Origin: a virus
Virus record (IMG/VR): IMGVR_UViG_3300003323_000141
Coordinates: 1-41,063 of that record
Direction: 5' to 3' (one strand)
DNA length: 41,063 bases
Shown here: positions 7,475 to 37,522 of the stretch, piece by piece
Numbering within the stretch: position 1 is the stretch's first letter
Layout: each line of letters opens with the position of its first letter
The notes under the pieces: generated by a model
Database searches by the model: none
What the model was told of the DNA's origin: nothing
The model's input: only the letters and a program-made list of their open reading frames with translations
Made by a program: the position numbers and the translations under genes

Positions 7475-8452
7475 ATGATCTATTCGAATACAGCGGCGCT
7501 GCCGCGCGAAGAGCTTGTGTTGATCTTGGTTCAAGGCGAAGGCCTGAATTCGGATCTAATTTGGAAAGAAATCCTTCCGGAATATCCGGTTGATAGGCGC
7601 AACGCGCATCTTATCAATGCGACAATTGCGACGGCGGAGCTTTTGAGAGTCGCGGACAAAGTTGCTGCGCCGGGAGCGAACGTAGAGCGTATTACGCTCA
7701 CGTTTGGGGATCAGAGCTTTAAGGTCGTTATCCGAAAGGAAGAAGTTCTTATTCCTGATGAGATTGAAAAGGATTACGGCGACTACTTCAGCACTGAGGC
7801 ATTTGCCAGCCGTAAGGGTCAGGAGCGTCTTGATTTGCTGATGGAGTATCTGTGTGCAATCGCGATCTTTAGCACCGCTACTTTTGGCGCGGCTACAAAT
7901 TCGCTGGTCGCATACACAGAGGCTAACATCGCTACGATTTCCTTCGTGGCAGACATTTACGCTGCTATCGAAAAGGTGAGGGATCAAGGCGAGCAGCCTA
8001 ATACTGTAGTAATCCCTGCGCAGGTGTATCAGCGGATTCGCCGTTCGTCGCTTGTTGTTGCGTTCGTTCGCGGCGTGCTGATGGCGCAACAGGAGGTTAA
8101 CACGAATACAATCCAAAAGGCGTTTGAGGATGAGGGTATCAAAAAGGTTGTAGTAGGACGGGCGCGTTACAACAGCGCCGCGTCTGGAGATACCCCCTCG
8201 CTGCAAAAGGTATGGCCGAATACTTATATCTTTGTCGGCAAGACCGGCGACAAGTTTAACGAAGAGGCGGACGGAATGAACACGGTTTCTGGAGTAGGAG
8301 CAACGGTGTACTGGAGCGAATACGGTATGCGCGAGGTTCAGACGTATCGAGACGAACCGAAGGAGAGCAACGTAGTTCGCGTTAAAACGTCAGCAATCCC
8401 ATACATCGCAAACGCGAATGCGGGAACACTGATCGCTACGCAATTCGCCTAA
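7475..8452 (+). CDS. Major capsid protein
   Basis: A 325-residue protein located directly after the decoration gene, as in lambda-like head operons. The order of features suits an HK97-fold capsid protein: N-terminal helical segment, an E-loop-like region near residues 75-110, a long central helix region with VADIYAAIEKVRDQG and NTVVIPAQVYQRIRR (the spine and P-domain pattern seen in capsid proteins), and a beta-rich end (GATVYWSEYGMREVQTYRDE). No close named family can be assigned by eye. Position, length and fold-like pattern support the call. Confidence 0.85.
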   Translation: MIYSNTAALPREELVLILVQGEGLNSDLIWKEILPEYPVDRRNAHLINATIATAELLRVADKVAAPGANVERITLTFGDQSFKVVIRKEEVLIPDEIEKDYGDYFSTEAFASRKGQERLDLLMEYLCAIAIFSTATFGAATNSLVAYTEANIATISFVADIYAAIEKVRDQGEQPNTVVIPAQVYQRIRRSSLVVAFVRGVLMAQQEVNTNTIQKAFEDEGIKKVVVGRARYNSAASGDTPSLQKVWPNTYIFVGKTGDKFNEEADGMNTVSGVGATVYWSEYGMREVQTYRDEPKESNVVRVKTSAIPYIANANAGTLIATQFA

Positions 8453-26580: not shown

Positions 26581-27459
26581 ATGATCCGACACATTGAAGT
26601 AGCGAGGCGAGTAAACCCTTATGTGATGATTGATAAGCGCGTCCTTGAGGACACGCGGATCTCATATAAAGCGAAAGGGTTACTTGCTTACTTATTGAGC
26701 CGTCCTCCTGACTGGAAAGTAATGATGGAGGACTTGATTAACCGTAGCACGGACGGCAGAGAGGCCGTGCAGAGCGCTTTGAAGGAATTGGAGGCATGTG
26801 GTTACGCGCAGTTAGTTGCATGCGCTGGAGGTCAGGGGAACACGTTTGCTGGCAAGCGTTGGATAGTGGCGGAGAGTCCGGAGCTTCTGGAGAGTCCCGA
26901 CAAACGGGTTTCCCCTTCGTCGGGTTTCCCGACCGTCGGGAAATCAGCGACTACTAATAATGATCTTACTAAGAATGAAGTAACTAATAGCGAAGGCTTG
27001 TTGTTTGATCTTGGAGAAGAGCAAGGGATTCAGGTTGAGAAATCGACTACTCAGCAACCTAGAGAGAAGGGCGGACAATTTACCGCCAGCGGGAAAATCT
27101 TAGAGACACAGGCAGAGAAGATATACGCAGAGTATCCGCGCAAGCAGGATAAGACGGCTGCAATCAAAGCGATCGTTACGATTCTGAAGAAGGCGGAGTT
27201 TGGAGAGAACACGTTTACATATCTGCTTAGCAAGGTTAAGAGGTACGCGATTCTCCGGATGAGCAAGGAAATGCAATTCACGAAGAAGCCGGAGAACTTT
27301 TTCAAGGACGGAACTTACCTGGACGATGAAGAAGCATGGGCGGAATTACATCTCGGAAAGAAACCGCAGAACGGTACGGGTGCTAGCTATCAGCAACAGC
27401 AGCAACCGAAGCATAAGATCATGAGCGCTCAAGAAAGGAGGAATGCTGCCAATGTCTGA
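26581..27459 (+). CDS. Replication initiator-like protein (winged helix, lambda O-like arrangement)
   Basis: 292 residues. Residues 1-90 (VNPYVMIDKRVLEDTRISYKAK, then LLAYLLSRPPDWKV and the segment after DLINRS) match the winged-helix N-terminal domain of phage/plasmid replication initiators. The linker holds the iteron-like repeats at 26905-26943 and, downstream, palindrome copy 8 (read FTASGK). The C-terminus is charged, with helix-rich part (about 180-250), likely for helicase loading. The next gene is a DnaB-type helicase, as expected for an initiator/helicase pair. Confidence 0.75.
   Translation: MIRHIEVARRVNPYVMIDKRVLEDTRISYKAKGLLAYLLSRPPDWKVMMEDLINRSTDGREAVQSALKELEACGYAQLVACAGGQGNTFAGKRWIVAESPELLESPDKRVSPSSGFPTVGKSATTNNDLTKNEVTNSEGLLFDLGEEQGIQVEKSTTQQPREKGGQFTASGKILETQAEKIYAEYPRKQDKTAAIKAIVTILKKAEFGENTFTYLLSKVKRYAILRMSKEMQFTKKPENFFKDGTYLDDEEAWAELHLGKKPQNGTGASYQQQQQPKHKIMSAQERRNAANV
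26905..26995 (+). other. Candidate replication origin: iterons plus AT-rich stretch
   Basis: Three repeats start with CGGG at 26905, 26921 and 26937, exactly 16 bases apart; the first two share 13 of 16 bases. The second contains GTCGGGTTTCCCGAC (26919-26933), an inverted repeat. An A/T-rich stretch with few G/C bases follows from about 26945 to 26995. Lambda ori has the same layout, iterons then an AT-rich part inside the initiator gene. Confidence 0.5.
27080..27095. repeat. Dispersed palindrome, copy 8 (in frame)
   Basis: TTACCGCCAGCGGGAA, with the left-arm C-to-A variant. It is read in frame as part of FTASGK in the linker of the initiator gene, about 85 bases downstream of the candidate origin. 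Confidence 0.9.
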
Positions 27460-28771
27460 ATTGAGAACATTACCGATGTCTCTAGATACGGAAAAGGCGT
27501 TACTAGCATGCATGTTTAGAATGTCGGTGGACGCAATTGCTTCGCTGCCTATCACTAGCCGTTGCTTTTGGGGACACGGCACGCGGTTGATGTTTGAGGA
27601 AATGCTTAGCGTAAACGCAGACGGACTAGATCAAGACCTAGTGCTTTTGGTTAATCGACTACGCGAGTCCGGAAACCTTGAGAACATGGGTCCGGATAAC
27701 GCAGGGGCTGGACTATGCGCAGAGATCTACGGCCTGTCCGGGTATACGCTGAGCTTAGTGGGAGAATACTGCGAACAGCTTCAGGCGTTAGCCAAGCGCC
27801 GCGAAGCTATCGACACGATGCAGAGGGGGCTAGCTTTAGCTTATGATCCTGGCGCACGAATCGAAGAGACTATAAACAGCGTACAGGCTAAGCTAGCTGT
27901 AGCAGAAGAGGGCGCGGACAATGATTGTGTAAGCGCCGAAGTATTCAGCGAGTTCCTGAAGGAGATTGACAGCCGCGAGGCGGGGAAGGTACAGATGGGA
28001 TTTATGACTGGAGTTCCTGCGTGGGATCAATCCACGCGCGGAATTCCCAGGGGGCAAATGTACCTCATAGGGGCGCGCCCGAAAGTTGGCAAGACGGCTG
28101 CGATAGAGATAGCGATTGACACGATGACGGAATCAGGGGTTCCGATTCTGCTTATACAGCGAGACACGAACATAAAGACTATGATAGGCCGAATGGCGTG
28201 CAGGCGTGCGGGTGTGATATATGACAACTACGAAACCGGCTACGGTATGAGTAAGGAGAATTACCGTAGAGTTAGAGAGGAGGCGAGGAAGCTAGCGAAA
28301 CGGCAGAATCTAATTCGGATCTATGACCCGGTTAGGATGACTGCGGATGATTTGTTTAGCATAGCGCTTCGCGAGCAGAGGAAATCAGGTATTCAGGCGT
28401 TCTTCTTGGATCATTTTCAGACGTTAGACTATGACAAGAATAACCGAACAGAGGGACTTACGCTCGCAAGCTCAAGACTTCGGAGACTTATTAACCAAAC
28501 CGGAATAGCTGGAGTTATCATAGCGCAGCTAAAATCGGATGCTGACAAGGGGCGTCCACACAGCGGGCAGTTCAAATGGTGCGATCAGTTGTTTAGCGAC
28601 GCCGACAAGATTGCGCTAATGTGGAGCGAGGTAGATCCTAAGCTACTTAAGCCTCACGCTAGGCAAGAGGTTAACTGGACGATTGCGGATAGCCGAACAG
28701 GCGCGCCGTCCGATAACGTCATGTTATTTCATCGCGAGTACATGAACTTTGAGCACATGAAAGACTTATGA
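27452..28771 (+). CDS. Replicative DNA helicase, DnaB-type
   Basis: 439 residues from ATG 27452, which sits 10 bases after AGGAGG; the ATG at 27443 is too close to that site. Residues 1-150 form the N-terminal helical domain (LDTEKALLACMF). The RecA-type motor has Walker A GARPKVGKTA at about residue 207, Walker B AFFLDHF near 317, and DnaB-family motifs such as RDTNIKTMIGRMACRRAG (H2/H3-like region) and IIAQLKSDADKGRP before GQFKWCDQLFSDADKI. It unwinds DNA at the fork and follows an initiator gene. Confidence 0.9.
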   Translation: MSELRTLPMSLDTEKALLACMFRMSVDAIASLPITSRCFWGHGTRLMFEEMLSVNADGLDQDLVLLVNRLRESGNLENMGPDNAGAGLCAEIYGLSGYTLSLVGEYCEQLQALAKRREAIDTMQRGLALAYDPGARIEETINSVQAKLAVAEEGADNDCVSAEVFSEFLKEIDSREAGKVQMGFMTGVPAWDQSTRGIPRGQMYLIGARPKVGKTAAIEIAIDTMTESGVPILLIQRDTNIKTMIGRMACRRAGVIYDNYETGYGMSKENYRRVREEARKLAKRQNLIRIYDPVRMTADDLFSIALREQRKSGIQAFFLDHFQTLDYDKNNRTEGLTLASSRLRRLINQTGIAGVIIAQLKSDADKGRPHSGQFKWCDQLFSDADKIALMWSEVDPKLLKPHARQEVNWTIADSRTGAPSDNVMLFHREYMNFEHMKDL

Positions 28772-29190
28772 TAGAAGCATTTGAAGAGAAACAACCTGGA
28801 GATAGAGACAGAGAATTTAGAGAGCAGGCAACGCGAATGCTGTCAGCTATGTTTGAGGATTGGCCGAAGTGCGAAAGGTGCCATACTGAAATAAGCTTTA
28901 GTCAAATGAGGTTTTCCGGATACGAAGACAGAATTAGGAATCAATTTGTCATCCGACTGCGGATTGACTGCCATGGGCAGATATGGAAAGGTGAGTGCGA
29001 TTACGACAGTTACGAAAGGCCGGAGAAAGGCACTTCGCGCTTTCCTGCTGCTATATTCGACGCACAGGGCGCACCGTATAATGTAGATGTTCGGCAAACG
29101 ATGGCGAAAAAAACACCTGTAGTGCTGGACTGCCAAATGTTTCCTCCTTCCGTAGTGGTATCCAGGGCAATTACCTTGCGAGATGAGTAG
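28768..29190 (+). CDS. Unknown early protein with CxxC pair
   Basis: 140 residues, overlapping the helicase stop by ATGA. It has CERC near residue 33 and further cysteines later, suggesting a metal site, and beta-rich sequence in the middle (FVIRLRIDCHGQIWKGECDYD). Not recognised. Located between helicase and the end of the replication block. Confidence 0.6.
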   Translation: MIEAFEEKQPGDRDREFREQATRMLSAMFEDWPKCERCHTEISFSQMRFSGYEDRIRNQFVIRLRIDCHGQIWKGECDYDSYERPEKGTSRFPAAIFDAQGAPYNVDVRQTMAKKTPVVLDCQMFPPSVVVSRAITLRDE

Positions 29191-29503
29191 GCCAAAATAC
29201 AAGGAACCTCCGGAGCCGAAGACGCGGAGGGAAGCTATTGACGCGCTGTTCGGTCACCCGAAAGTGAGGAGCGCTCTTGTCCAGACCAATGAAAGCCTGG
29301 ACGTGAAACGCGAAAGAAAGATGGAGGGAGGCAACGCATTCAACGAGAGCCAGCACCGCAGGACTACCTTCCGCGTCTGTATATGGACTACGGAAGGAAA
29401 ATTCGGCGAGTGCGAGGATGAGGAGATGAGAGCGGCTCTGCATGGGGCAAAAAAGCTGGCGGGACTTTTCCCGCCAGCGGGAAAATCTAATGGAGGAGCT
29501 TGA
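29183..29503 (+). CDS. Unknown protein carrying palindrome copy 9
   Basis: 106 residues, starting within the end of the preceding gene. It has an N-terminal basic region and a small domain (FRVCIWTTEGKFGECED). The palindrome at 29468-29483 encodes FPPAGK near its C-terminus, after which only five residues remain. Without the palindrome, the protein would probably end near residue 94, so this copy could have been added to the 3' end. Confidence 0.6.
   Translation: MSRPKYKEPPEPKTRREAIDALFGHPKVRSALVQTNESLDVKRERKMEGGNAFNESQHRRTTFRVCIWTTEGKFGECEDEEMRAALHGAKKLAGLFPPAGKSNGGA
29468..29483. repeat. Dispersed palindrome, copy 9 (in frame)
   Basis: Perfect core and arms (29466-29485). It falls near the C-terminus of the small gene at 29183-29503 and is read as FPPAGK, just ahead of promoter P2 at 29550. 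Confidence 0.95.
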
Positions 29504-29555
29504 TTTTCAGGCACTTCCAAACAATCGCGAAAAAAACTTCAAAAAAGTCTTGTAG
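29490..29555 (+). CDS. Tiny ORF overlapping promoter P2 (tentative)
   Basis: 21 codons beginning with ATG 29490, just after the palindrome. It has a plausible ribosome-rich sequence only downstream of the start, and its 3' end coincides with the promoter -35 at 29550. It could be a leader peptide or chance. I list it only as a candidate. Confidence 0.25.
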   Translation: MEELDFQALPNNREKNFKKVL

Positions 29556-29577
29556 GGAATTCAAAAATCTCTACAGT
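29536..29577 (+). promoter_or_regulatory. Second promoter candidate (P2) with shared upstream motif
   Basis: ACTTCAAAAAAGTC at 29536-29549 followed by TTGTAG (29550-29555), a 16-base spacer and TACAGT (29572-29577). The upstream motif has the same distance to the -35-like hexamer as in P1 (14 bases from its first base). It lies just upstream of the structured RNA candidate. Confidence 0.6.
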
Positions 29578-29957
29578 GGGTCTCACAACAAGAGCGAGTC
29601 CGGCAGCGAAGCAAGCCCGGAGACCCCGCAAGTAAACGGCGGAACCTGGAGTGCCAAAGTGCACAGCAGTCCTAGAGACGCAGGGAAACAGTAACCGTAG
29701 GTCCAAACGACAGGTACAAGCGTGAGTCCCGAACGAAACACGGGGCACTGGAGAAGGGAGCGCAAAGCCAATACGGCGGGCGTATTTTCCAGGATAAATA
29801 AAACCGCGACAACTCAGAGCAAGAGCGCGGAAACATACGGGTGACACCCGGCAAGGAAAATGGAGGCGGGAGAAGTGGAAAGCGACAACAACAAAAAAGA
29901 CAACGATTTCAGTAGATACTCAGCGGGCGGCAAGCAACAAGCCGCCCGCTGCAATCT
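29578..29957 (+). ncRNA. Candidate structured noncoding RNA, about 380 nt
   Basis: No credible reading frame here, but many self-complementary elements lie in order: GGGTC 29578-29582 with GACCC 29622-29626; TCCGG 29599-29603 with CCGGA 29617-29621; AATACG 29770-29775 with CGTATT 29781-29786 (5-base loop); CCGCG 29804-29808 with CGCGG 29826-29830; CGGGT 29838-29842 with ACCCG 29846-29850; and CAGCGGGCGGC 29921-29931 with GCCGCCCGCTG 29941-29951. GAAAC occurs repeatedly. The promoter P2 precedes it and the final hairpin ends six bases before the next ATG. I recognise no known RNA family. Alternatively it is a long untranslated leader. Confidence 0.6.
29921..29951 (+). terminator. Hairpin directly before gene at 29958
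   Basis: 11-bp perfect stem CAGCGGGCGGC with GCCGCCCGCTG, 9-base loop, followed by CAATCT and the ATG. It has no T tract, so it may be a processing or translational element rather than a classic terminator. Confidence 0.5.
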
Positions 29958-30434
29958 ATGGAAAACACAACACAGAATAACTCAGCGGCAGAGAAGCAAG
30001 CCGCACTCCGCGAAGCAGCAGTTAGGGCCGTGCGCGAATACGCGGCGGACAAGATGATTGATCTAAAGGTGCATCAGCACATGACGCGTGGTAAGTTGCT
30101 TGCGGCGGCGAAAGCGGCGGCGACGGAAGGTATACAGGCGAGTGAGCGGCGCTATCCGATTGCGGCCTACGTAGCGGAGTGCTTGGAGCTTCGCAATGAA
30201 TCGTGCGATGTAATGCTTCCAGTGGAAGCTGCCATAGTGCTGAAAGCAGCAAGTGACGCAGGGCTGTTTGACGAAACGGGGACGTATATTTCGTGCGGCG
30301 GTGTAGATGTGCGCAATGACGGTCTGCTCGTATATCTTAAGCGCGACCCTGAATATCTTAAGAGCGAAGCCGGCAACGCTCACAGCAGGGTGGCGTCATA
30401 TAACAGCGTAGTGGAGTCGGTAGCTGCGCTGTAG
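29958..30434 (+). CDS. Unknown protein downstream of structured RNA
   Basis: 158 residues, rich in alanine and charged residues in the first 60 (AEKQAALREAAVRAVREYAAD). It continues with a domain containing SCDVMLPVEAAIVLKAASDAG, a pattern without family match. Start at ATG 29958 is preceded by the hairpin and no normal ribosome site. Possibly translated from the RNA upstream. Confidence 0.6.
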   Translation: MENTTQNNSAAEKQAALREAAVRAVREYAADKMIDLKVHQHMTRGKLLAAAKAAATEGIQASERRYPIAAYVAECLELRNESCDVMLPVEAAIVLKAASDAGLFDETGTYISCGGVDVRNDGLLVYLKRDPEYLKSEAGNAHSRVASYNSVVESVAAL

Positions 30435-30457
30435 TTTGCTGGGGTGTTACACAGCAC

Positions 30458-30488
30458 AACGCGCATTGGCTGCAAGTCAGTGCGCGTT
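30458..30488 (+). promoter_or_regulatory. Hairpin directly before gene at 30493
   Basis: 8-bp stem AACGCGCA (30458-30465) with TGCGCGTT (30481-30488), 15-base loop. It ends 4 bases before the ATG, so it would cover the place of a ribosome site. Candidate translational control element. Confidence 0.45.
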
Positions 30489-30492
30489 AGCT

Positions 30493-30942
30493 ATGGAGCA
30501 AACCAAAAATAACAAAAGCGCTACGGCAGCGAAGCAAGCCGGTTACCTGATCGTTTCAAAAGTAGATTTGGAGGTAATCGCGAGAGCGATTGCTAAGGAT
30601 GGGTATTCGAGCGTTAGTATACCTGTTGAGGTAATACAGGGCAGGGACGTTGCTGGGCGGGTTCAGGTGTCGATTGATTATACGGAGATTGTACGGCGCG
30701 GGTACGATATACGCGGGGTTGATCTGACAGGCGAAAAGCAGGCTCTGCGAGATTTCTATAATCTCAGCACGAACCGCGAACAGTGCGTCAAAACAATCTG
30801 CGAGCATTGGCCGGAGCACGCGGAGATGATCCGGGCCTATCACGAATCGCGCTCGAATCCGATTAGGATTACGTTACCTGACCGTCATTCGGTAGGTGGA
30901 CACAGGAGCACATGCGAAGAGTCCGTGTCTAGTAGTGAATAG
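30493..30942 (+). CDS. Unknown protein with alternating basic/hydrophobic domain
   Basis: 149 residues from ATG 30493; the frame is open upstream through the hairpin but no better start is visible. Residues 15-80 look like a small domain (VSKVDLEVIARAIAKDGYSSVSIPV). Not recognised. It has similar general composition to its upstream neighbour, but I see no clear homology. Confidence 0.55.
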   Translation: MEQTKNNKSATAAKQAGYLIVSKVDLEVIARAIAKDGYSSVSIPVEVIQGRDVAGRVQVSIDYTEIVRRGYDIRGVDLTGEKQALRDFYNLSTNREQCVKTICEHWPEHAEMIRAYHESRSNPIRITLPDRHSVGGHRSTCEESVSSSE

Positions 30943-30947
30943 ACGGC

Positions 30948-30973
30948 TAGCCGCTAGCTAACACTGGCGGCTA
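30948..30973 (+). promoter_or_regulatory. Hairpin directly before gene at 30980
   Basis: 7-bp stem TAGCCGC (30948-30954) with GCGGCTA (30967-30973), loop of 12, ending 6 bases before the ATG at 30980. Third example in 1.1 kb of a stem placed just before a start codon. Confidence 0.45.
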
Positions 30974-30979
30974 TGGTCT

Positions 30980-31675
30980 ATGCACAGCAAACCTGAAATA
31001 AACCACAACGGAGCAGCGCCGGAGCAAGCTGCGATATTCCTTTTTGAGAAAGGAGTGATAACATGCAGAAGGAACGGAGAAGAGATACGGGAAAGGGACT
31101 GGCCAGTACTCACCGAAGAGCAAGAGGAAGAGCTAAGGCGGTCGGGGAGTCTGACGCTCGGGGAGATCGCGAAGGTTACGGTTTACCCATCGCAGACACT
31201 TACGGCGGAATATGGTTTTGCGGTGTATAGCGTGGATACGGCGGACGTTCCGAAAATCGGCTACATGGCTGGAGCGCAGGTTATGCCAATCAAAGACGGC
31301 TCGCGGCCCGTGGTTACGATCCAGCGCGGCAGCGTAGCGGAGTCATTTATTCGCGTGCACGGAGTTGCAGCTAACCTGCTCGAAAAGAAACGGCTAGCAA
31401 AGCCGGATACAGCGCTTTTGAGCCTAGATGAAGCGCGGTGGAGAGTGTCGGCGCTCACTAATAAAGTGAAGGAGGCTAAGTCCAAGCGCAGCACTGCGGC
31501 AGGCTCGCTGCTGGACGCAGAGAAAAAGGTGAAGCTGCACCGCGCCGAAGTGGAGCGCCAAAATGCAATCCTGGACTCACTGCGTAAGGAGGCGCATACA
31601 ATGGCCGTTAGTGGGTTGTATGACGCTATAATCAACGGAAAGAATCATCTTATAAACCTCAGCCGCGACGTATAA
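30980..31675 (+). CDS. Unknown coiled-coil protein
   Basis: 231 residues. N-terminal acidic domain of about 120 residues, then a K/E-rich coiled coil (about 152-205) with leucine spacing. Not recognised. The following AAA+ gene begins 4 bases after the stop, so the two are probably made together and could interact. Confidence 0.6.
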   Translation: MHSKPEINHNGAAPEQAAIFLFEKGVITCRRNGEEIRERDWPVLTEEQEEELRRSGSLTLGEIAKVTVYPSQTLTAEYGFAVYSVDTADVPKIGYMAGAQVMPIKDGSRPVVTIQRGSVAESFIRVHGVAANLLEKKRLAKPDTALLSLDEARWRVSALTNKVKEAKSKRSTAAGSLLDAEKKVKLHRAEVERQNAILDSLRKEAHTMAVSGLYDAIINGKNHLINLSRDV

Positions 31676-31679
31676 GACT

Positions 31680-33152
31680 ATGGCAACAACGCTAGACAAA
31701 TGGAAGGCAGCACGGCGGGCGGCGGTTCCGTTGGTGGTAATTCATACGCCTGATCCGAACGCTACAATTCTTGAAATACTTAGAGAGACAGAGAAAGCGC
31801 CGATTAATAGGTGGGATTGCATTACGGGTGTACAGCCGATAAATCAACCGGCTCGAAAGCTGGCGTCATGGAGTAGCGGCGGATTTGAAACGATAAATCC
31901 AGTACAAGCAATTATGGCTGCCGATGAGCGGATGCCGGAAATGTCAATCCTGTTCATGTGCAATCTACATGCGTTTATAAGCTCTGGAGACGCAAGCGCA
32001 ATGGAGGTAATCCAAGCGCTGCAAAACGCTAGAGATAGGATGAAGAACAACAAACGCACTATCGCCATCCTTTGCCCATCTCTAACGCTTCCTGAGGAGC
32101 TGAAACATGATGCTGTTGTCATTCGGGAGCCTCTCCCGAATGAACAGCAAATCGAAGAGATCGCAAAGGTTACGCTAGATGCTTTTCCTACTTTTACCGC
32201 TGGCGGGAAAATTGCTGGGATCGTAGACGCAACTGCTGGCCTGTCGGCATTCGAGGCAGAGCAGGCCATTGCTATGAGCGTAACACCTGATGGCATTGAT
32301 TCGGAAATGCTATGGGAGAACAAGCGAGCAGCGATTGAGGCCGCGCCAGGGCTTAAGGTATGGCGGGGAAAAGAGGGATTCGGAAGCATTGGCGGATACA
32401 GCGCAATAAAGGGGTTTCTGCAAAAGCTGTTCAGCGGCTCGCTTAAGCCGCGAGTCATCGTGTTTATTGACGAGATAGAGAAGCAGTTAGCCGGACTTGC
32501 AGGGGATAGCTCAGGCGTAACACAGGATCAGTTAGGGGAAATCCTTACATTCATGGAGGATGAGCGATGCTCAGGAATCCTGTTACTCGGACCGGCTGGA
32601 ACGGGTAAGAGTAACATCAGCAAGGCGGCAGGCAATGAGGCGGGAGTGCCGGTTATTGCGCTGAATCTTGGCGCAATGAAACATGAGCACGTCGGACAAA
32701 GCGAAGCTAGAATCCGTGGAGCGCTGGATGTTATTCGAGCGATAGGGCAAGACAAGATTCTGTTCGTGGCGACGTGCAACAGCGTAGCCGTATTGCCTCC
32801 AGAGCTTAGGCGGCGCTTCCGTTTGGGTTCGTTCTTTATGGACTTACCGAATAAAGAGGAGCGTTCGGCTATTTGGAGACTTTACGGCGGCAGCGCAAAA
32901 GGCATACAAGAAGACGGATGGACAGGCGCGGAGATAAAGCAGTGCTGCGAATATGCGCAAGCATTTGGATGCTCTGAGAAAGAGGCGGCGAAGTATATCG
33001 TTCCGGTAAGTGTAAGCGCTGCGGATGTGGTAAAAGGGCTCAGGCAGCAAGCGAGCGGTAGATTCCTGTCAGCTAGTTACCCTGGACTATATCAGGAGAA
33101 GGCAGCAAGCGAATCGGTAAACGGTCGGAGTCTAAGCTTAGGGGAGGACTAA
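31680..33152 (+). CDS. AAA+ ATPase, Ycf46-like, with permuted motif order
   Basis: 490 residues. The N-terminal 240 residues follow the Ycf46 pattern (WDCITGVQ near 45, ending with the GLSAFEAEQA segment and WENKRAAIE). The AAA+ core has an unusual order: a Walker B-like FIDEIEK at about residues 260-266 lies before the Walker A loop GPAGTGKS at about 304-311, followed by sensor-1-like FVATCNSVAVL and PPELRRRF near 365-380 with the arginine finger region. In canonical Ycf46 the Walker A precedes the B motif. Palindrome copy 10 is inside (32194-32209, read FTAGGK in a variable segment). Role unknown; neighbours are DUF1257 and DUF2997 genes. Confidence 0.85.
   Translation: MATTLDKWKAARRAAVPLVVIHTPDPNATILEILRETEKAPINRWDCITGVQPINQPARKLASWSSGGFETINPVQAIMAADERMPEMSILFMCNLHAFISSGDASAMEVIQALQNARDRMKNNKRTIAILCPSLTLPEELKHDAVVIREPLPNEQQIEEIAKVTLDAFPTFTAGGKIAGIVDATAGLSAFEAEQAIAMSVTPDGIDSEMLWENKRAAIEAAPGLKVWRGKEGFGSIGGYSAIKGFLQKLFSGSLKPRVIVFIDEIEKQLAGLAGDSSGVTQDQLGEILTFMEDERCSGILLLGPAGTGKSNISKAAGNEAGVPVIALNLGAMKHEHVGQSEARIRGALDVIRAIGQDKILFVATCNSVAVLPPELRRRFRLGSFFMDLPNKEERSAIWRLYGGSAKGIQEDGWTGAEIKQCCEYAQAFGCSEKEAAKYIVPVSVSAADVVKGLRQQASGRFLSASYPGLYQEKAASESVNGRSLSLGED
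32194..32209. repeat. Dispersed palindrome, copy 10 (in frame, inverted centre)
   Basis: TTACCGCTGGCGGGAA with the left-arm variant and central TG. It is read in frame in the ATPase gene, in the variable part between conserved segments of the N-terminal domain. Confidence 0.9.
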
Positions 33153-33160
33153 CACTGTTG

Positions 33161-33254
33161 CGTGCAATAGCCAATAGGAGGGCGAATAAGAAGCGTCCTT
33201 AGGTTCCATAGGGCTTGCACGAAGTGAGGGGAGCAGGCTCCTATACTGCTCCCC
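33161..33254 (+). ncRNA. Candidate small structured RNA followed by terminator hairpin
   Basis: CGTGCAA (33161-33167) pairs perfectly with TTGCACG (33215-33221) and GCC (33170-33172) with GGC (33212-33214), forming a long basal stem around about 40 bases. Inside, AGGGCG can pair with CGTCCT (one G-T pair). A terminator-like hairpin follows. It lies between the ATPase and the DUF1257 operon and contains no credible gene. I recognise no family; a tRNA-like fold was considered and rejected. Confidence 0.5.
33228..33254 (+). terminator. Terminator-like hairpin after the ATPase gene
   Basis: Perfect 9-bp stem GGGGAGCAG (33228-33236) with CTGCTCCCC (33246-33254), loop of 9 bases, followed by TTGCTAAC. 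Weak T tract, but a good stem. Confidence 0.6.
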
Positions 33255-33376
33255 TTGCTAACAGATTATGCAGACAGCAAAAGAGAGGGGTGATGCAATG
33301 TGATTAGCCTTTTGAGTAGACTAAAGACAATACTCCTACGGCTAGCTTTCCGATACAGGAAGTGCAGCATCCTAAC

Positions 33377-33410
33377 GGCGCGGCGAAAGGTCCCAACCCT
33401 TAGCCGCGCC
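33377..33410 (+). promoter_or_regulatory. Hairpin before gene at 33423
   Basis: 8-bp stem GGCGCGGC (33377-33384) with GCCGCGCC (33403-33410), with an inner AAGG/CCTT pairing. It ends 12 bases before the ATG and is followed by AAATTACTTT. Possible attenuator. Confidence 0.5.
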
Positions 33411-33422
33411 AAATTACTTTCC

Positions 33423-33554
33423 ATGAGCAACAACGAAGACAACACAAACGGAACGGCTCCGATGCAAGCCGTATGGTGCGGATATGATGACGCACTAGGA
33501 TCGTATGTCGTGGAATATGCAGACGGCAGAAAGGAGGCGATATGTCTCACGTAG
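33423..33554 (+). CDS. Tiny unknown protein before DUF1257 gene
   Basis: 43 residues from ATG 33423, overlapping the next gene. Sequence has a short beta-type domain (AVWCGYDDALGSYVVEYADG). The frame is open from GTG 33300, which would add an arginine-rich N-terminus encoded by the hairpin; I prefer the ATG because the upstream residues look random. The DUF1257 ribosome site AGGAGGCGAT lies inside this gene. Confidence 0.5.
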   Translation: MSNNEDNTNGTAPMQAVWCGYDDALGSYVVEYADGRKEAICLT

Positions 33555-36591: not shown

Positions 36592-36628
36592 AAGCGGGCG
36601 CTCTTAAAACAGGGGAGAGCGCCCGCTT
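36592..36628 (+). terminator. Strong hairpin after the ParB/KorB-like gene
   Basis: Perfect 13-bp stem AAGCGGGCGCTCT (36592-36604) with AGAGCGCCCGCTT (36616-36628), loop of 11 bases. It is followed by AGTGCTTACTG, without a T tract. It closes the accessory operon and precedes the lipoprotein gene by 16 bases. Confidence 0.6.
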
Positions 36629-37494: not shown

Positions 37495-37522
37495 CCGCCC
37501 GTTCTGGAAACAGAACGGGCGG
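37495..37522 (+). terminator. Terminator-like hairpin with GAAA tetraloop
   Basis: 12-bp perfect stem CCGCCCGTTCTG (37495-37506) with CAGAACGGGCGG (37511-37522) around GAAA, followed by ACTTCATTTT. It precedes the tiny gene at 37533. Confidence 0.7.

Follow-up and report, generated by a model that had tools for sequence, protein, structure and literature searches.

Structured leaders that open a phage operon are known in the put-type RNAs of HK022, and processing-type sites lie between the early genes of T7. The nearest known parallel to the hairpins described below is SAS/ESAS, found in Cluster K mycobacteriophages and in Microbacterium Cluster EF phages (PMC3203893, PMC7302621). Start-associated repeats of this kind have been on record in phages for more than ten years, with no known function. 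A role in translation initiation was considered by the authors who described them, and no function was assigned (PMC3203893, PMC7302621). For Cluster K, reading ESAS as RNA hairpins is disfavoured: according to the authors its variation does not support RNA pairing, and pairing is not kept (PMC3203893). Here we describe a phage locus where inverted repeats stand just before consecutive start codons, at the end of a non-coding gap and at the gene junctions that follow it.

The non-coding gap, a probable leader, and its surroundings

The stretch analysed (the window) is the 41,063 bases of virus record IMGVR_UViG_3300003323_000141. Its main genes are on the + strand, with those for terminase, portal and capsid in the left part. 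The nearest isolate for TerL is Verrucomicrobia phage P8625, and the nearest ATPase matches among the genomes searched are Armatimonadota contigs (46-48% identity). No close DNA relatives were found in phages and plasmids, and a single-sequence protein search of IMG/VR for gene 29958, DnaB and gene 30980 returned no relatives. There are no tRNA or tmRNA genes. The part of the window that concerns us contains the following features.

26581-27459: replication initiator
27443-28771: DnaB-like helicase
29183-29503: gene upstream of the non-coding gap
29504-29957, + strand: non-coding gap between genes 29183-29503 and 29958-30434, with negative codon bias in all frames and with stops
29551-29575, no strand assigned: inverted repeat TGTAGGGA-N9-TCTCTACA covering the putative promoter P2; a possible, weak operator
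29585-29917, + strand: leader body, about 9% T, with small hairpins that as a set do not exceed chance
29601-29617, + strand: 17-mer CGGCAGCGAAGCAAGCC, the leader copy of a start motif that genes 29958 and 30493 carry within their starts
29860-30057, + strand: doubtful open reading frame seen on inspection of the sequence, AAGGA before its ATG, spanning hairpin 1 (below) and out of frame with gene 29958, which it overlaps
29958-30434, + strand: first gene of the operon, of no recognised family
31680-33152, + strand: AAA ATPase of the operon (Pfam AAA)

The ATPase is separated from the leader by three genes that match no recognised family.

The gap does not code for protein. A codon model trained on the phage's own genes gave a negative score in each of its frames, and 29575-29957 has three stops in every forward frame. 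The preliminary description of this DNA was right in calling the coding frames random. Codon bias being absent, both the coding and the pseudogene reading of the leader were rejected. What that description overlooked is the poverty in T, which is about 9-10% in this stretch compared to 20.7% genome-wide. Low T begins at about 29571 and extends into the start of gene 29958; the remaining T-poor windows of the phage fall in genes for hydrophilic proteins. As RNA, the leader would be rich in A and G and poor in U, with A-rich loops. A T-poor stretch of another locus (L075) turned out to be coding.

Compared to shuffled sequences, the whole stretch folds better than expected on the + strand (z -2.6) and not on the - strand (z 0.3). 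Most of this excess comes from the last hairpin, because 29585-29912, which lacks it, is ordinary (z -1.3, p 0.09). Within the body, 29585-29680 has z -0.3, and the z of -3.0 for 29680-29870 belongs to a piece that was selected after the fact. The last segment, 29914-29957, has z -6.5, and none of 300 shuffles was as good. In a genome-wide scan of 300-base windows, those at 29601 and 29801 were no outliers. Folding statistics thus support the proposed structured RNA of about 380 nt at its 3' end and not elsewhere.

One may still ask whether the gap encodes a self-standing large structured RNA of a new class. It is non-coding and U-poor with A-rich loops, its total z is -2.6, and its counterpart in a distant relative (G002, below) is strongly folded. 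However, the body is unremarkable, the stretch runs straight into a gene start, and neither a family match nor a homologue was found. Rfam gave no match at the gathering score or at permissive thresholds, leader and riboswitch families included. The GOLLD and ROOL models, run over 29400-30600 with E up to 5, gave none either, so that covariance-model search lends no support to kinship with these RNAs, and we do not take the leader to be of their type. Searches with blastn and nhmmer against ATPase-bearing or pattern-matched loci yielded no alignable homologue of the leader. In three loci from Armatimonadota MAGs (L100/L101/L103) the upstream DNA can be aligned, and its variation, judged by eye, resembles that of a - strand gene; they were rejected as homologues. 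We consider a standalone RNA highly improbable, and the region is probably the regulatory leader of an ATPase-containing operon rather than such an RNA.

A plainer suggestion is that we are dealing with an ordinary intergenic spacer, possibly made of gene-start remnants, in which, the last hairpin aside, neither composition nor folding has any significance. The body does behave like its shuffles, and both the 17-mer copy and the frame at 29860 look like gene starts. Against this, no coding bias remains, and a structured gap is kept in the same place of the relative G002. A plain spacer therefore seems to us rather improbable.

How would such a leader be transcribed? P2 (TTGTAG-16-TACAGT) matches the sigma-70 consensus at 3/6 and 4/6 positions (7/12), and a consensus promoter scan reports nothing there. 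Since there is also no + strand terminator immediately ahead of it and transcription could read through from the helicase genes, we do not uphold the claim that the RNA has its own promoter. The inverted repeat over P2 is the only instance of its symmetric pattern without mismatches in the window, and chance yields 8-bp inverted repeats of this kind not rarely.

The 17-mer has four matches with at most three mismatches where 0.20 are expected. As a lead to relatives in IMG/VR it was abandoned: its 12 scattered exact matches are near chance expectation, with no longer similarity worth noting.

Two further observations concern inverted repeats elsewhere in the window. A 16-bp palindrome, TTCCCGC(CA/TG)GCGGGAA, is dispersed between and inside genes in 12 copies with at most one mismatch (13 with at most two; 0.16 expected by chance), at 91, 5914, 8872, 12489, 16236, 20355, 23997, 27080, 29468, 32194, 35511 and 37987. 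One copy precedes the inverted repeat at 29551 by 68 nt; it adjoins the leader without belonging to it. Intergenic segment 11544-11717, with the inverted repeat TTAAGCGTGTAAT...ATTACACGCTTAA, falls in the 300-base window that folds best in the whole genome (11601-11900).

Hairpins before start codons

The last hairpin of the leader is one of several that end shortly before a start codon. Some genes also carry a second, smaller hairpin, B, just inside the coding sequence.

29914-29957, + strand: start-proximal hairpin 1, 11 bp plus an outer AGAT/ATCT stem
30458-30488, + strand: start-proximal hairpin 2, 14 bp, 4 nt before ATG 30493 (z -3.75)
30948-30973, + strand: start-proximal hairpin 3, 10 bp, 6 nt before ATG 30980 (z -3.9)
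33377-33410, + strand: start-proximal hairpin, 12 nt before ATG 33423
36592-36628, + strand: start-proximal hairpin, 14 bp, 16 nt before ATG 36645 (start uncertain)
37495-37522, + strand: start-proximal hairpin, 12 bp, 10 nt before ATG 37533 (start uncertain; may be a terminator)
29985-30004, + strand: hairpin B, GCGGC-AGAGAAGCAA-GCCGC, inside the start of gene 29958, encoding SAAEKQAA
30524-30541, + strand: copy of hairpin B, CGGC-AGCGAAGCAA-GCCG, inside the start of gene 30493
31013-31032, + strand: copy of hairpin B, GCAGC-GCCGGAGCAA-GCTGC, inside a gene start
33453-33472: hairpin B after ATG 33423

The stem of hairpin 1, CAGCGGGCGGC/GCCGCCCGCTG (29921-29951), is a perfect 11 bp and ends 6 nt before ATG 29958. 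This is exactly as it was first reported, and the shuffles place it far beyond chance.

The window and related or pattern-matched loci, 140 in all, were scanned for stems of 9 bp or more that end at most 8 nt before the ATG of open reading frames of at least 100 amino acids. Such stems precede 14 of 1930 gene starts and 22 of 5574 control ATGs. Three of these belong to the window and stand before genes 29958, 30493 and 30980, which follow one another; every other locus has at most one. By a graded, looser score, 6 of the 57 starts in the window (29958, 30493, 30980, 33423, 36645 and 37533) have a hairpin compared to 0.6% of random positions; the thresholds of these scans were set only once the first three hairpins had been seen. 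The six end 4-16 nt before the start codon, are confined to the right, non-structural part (29.9-37.5 kb) and differ from each other in stem sequence. None of these starts has a Shine-Dalgarno-like sequence. Since such a sequence is missing before the start in about three quarters of the listed genes, with or without hairpins, its absence here is uninformative.

Some of the six could be terminators or processing sites. Hairpins 1-3 are poor candidates for intrinsic terminators, as no U run follows them. If the intercistronic hairpins are sites of RNA processing or RNA ends (RNase III-type cleavage, protection of 5' or 3' ends), no gating of translation is implied. The first three, of about 14-17 bp each, at gene junctions of one operon and free of a U run, are what one might expect of such sites. 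They are, however, unusually near the start codon (4-6 nt) rather than placed at random in the gaps, and we regard a role in processing alone as unlikely.

Hairpin B, a potential stem of 4-5 bp with a loop of 10 bases whose last four are GCAA, lies in an in-frame motif soon after the ATG of genes 29958, 30493, 30980 and 33423. We give little weight to reading it as RNA, because the amino-acid motif A-x-x-Q-A accounts for much of the similarity.

The operon has a second non-coding gap, 33153-33422, with two GC-rich hairpins and a strong fold (33153-33413, z -5.3).

A corresponding gap in a distant relative

G002 is an IMG/VR record of 41,475 bases whose TerL, DnaB and ATPase are 38%, 35% and 47% identical to those of the window. 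It also has counterparts of genes 26581, 33542, 34132, 34356, 35259 and 35390. Between its DnaB stop and its ATPase there is a non-coding gap of 371 nt (ATG 7736) or, with an alternative ATG at 7682, of 317 nt (L153 coordinates). The window genes between DnaB and the ATPase, two before the leader and three after it, have no match in this stretch of G002.

The 371-nt gap has z -5.9, with the reverse strand scoring too, and its best 300-base window ranks first of 220 in folding excess over the 33 kb scanned. Here too, as in the window, part of the body (7491-7625) does not stand out, with z -1.2. It is at the 3' end that the gap has its strongest hairpins, and one of these is immediately adjacent to ATG 7682. 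The leaders of G002 and the window cannot be aligned; what is conserved is thus position and kind, and homology rests on position alone.

At the 5' end of the G002 gap (L153:7442-7490) there are two TTACGA-N4-TCGTAA palindromes with identical arms, 33 bp apart. The pattern without mismatch occurs nowhere else in that record, and the two are likely operators. This raises the possibility that the region of the window acts as DNA, as an operator or as an origin that follows the genes for the initiator and DnaB, in which the 17-mers would be candidate binding repeats for a protein. The location directly after replication genes, the 17-mers themselves and the G002 palindromes in the syntenic gap would fit. 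Yet the distances between the 17-mer copies are 385 and 538 bp, two of the copies fall within coding starts, and skew has no inflection. The hairpins are specific to start codons, and the fold excess of the window is on the + strand, though the reverse strand of G002 scores too. We find a purely DNA-level role distinctly improbable.

Our preferred explanation, which we put forward tentatively and regard as having nearly even chances, is that 29551-29957 acts as a regulated 5' leader in which access to the start codon is governed by the final hairpin, as it is at the following genes by theirs. The region would comprise the control region and the 5' untranslated part of an operon of the early or middle class that follows the DnaB helicase genes. 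This operon would run from gene 29958 to about 36571 and include the AAA ATPase and a DUF3150 protein. We infer that transcription enters at a regulated start near the inverted repeat, or by readthrough. If the RNA folds in the cell as predicted, the leader would close with a highly stable hairpin, set 6 nt ahead of the first gene's ATG, with a similar arrangement at the next two genes. Such hairpins may gate the access of ribosomes to start codons with no Shine-Dalgarno sequence; translation of the upstream gene, binding of a protein or processing of the RNA might open them. It is possible that this explanation and its alternatives overlap in part. From the preliminary description it keeps a non-coding, transcript-like leader, on the grounds of its position and of the folded gap in the same syntenic place of G002, but neither the extended RNA nor the promoter.

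Comparison with known systems

Several other ATPase-bearing phages repeat sequences at gene starts. In L037 (6043-11404) eight genes have a hairpin, GTTGGTTC...GA(G/A)(C/T)CGAC, then AAAAGGAGGACGG, then the ATG; L066, L046, L020, L045, L085 and L098 are similar. Over the nine pairs of the L037 cassette, 98.5% of cells hold standard pairs compared to 12-53% in slid versions. The pairing is not above that of column shuffles (282/500), which pair equally well because the left arm hardly varies.

The 16-bp palindrome of the window, a 7-2-7 arrangement, shares the 7-n-7 design of the 17-bp palindromic repeats of Cluster O mycobacteriophages, with a different sequence (PMC4351075). A relative of the window ATPase is present in the Cluster O phage Catdawg.

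Like put-type RNAs of HK022, the leader is structured and stands at the start of an operon, but it has no sequence or family match to them. Like GOLLD and ROOL, which are partly phage-associated (PMC12286853), it is non-coding. In contrast to these it folds much less, joins a gene start directly and has no Rfam match at a useful score.

The likeness to SAS/ESAS is closer. In both, inverted repeats stand a few nucleotides upstream of start codons and the spacer between the arms is 4-13 nt for most. SAS/ESAS belong mostly to non-structural genes, and all six hairpins of the window are in the non-structural part. Unlike SAS/ESAS, the window has no conserved 13-bp motif with AGGAG at the position of the ribosome-binding site, and its stems stay paired while differing in sequence between genes. 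A bolder suggestion, which we hold to be possible though doubtful, is that the structured leader and the start-codon hairpins, preserved in pairing and place and not in sequence, together control translation of the whole early operon. If correct, this would be a structural counterpart of SAS/ESAS that works as RNA. With pairing kept where sequence is not, and with a countable set of sites in an uncultivated lineage, the window makes the RNA reading directly testable in reporters.
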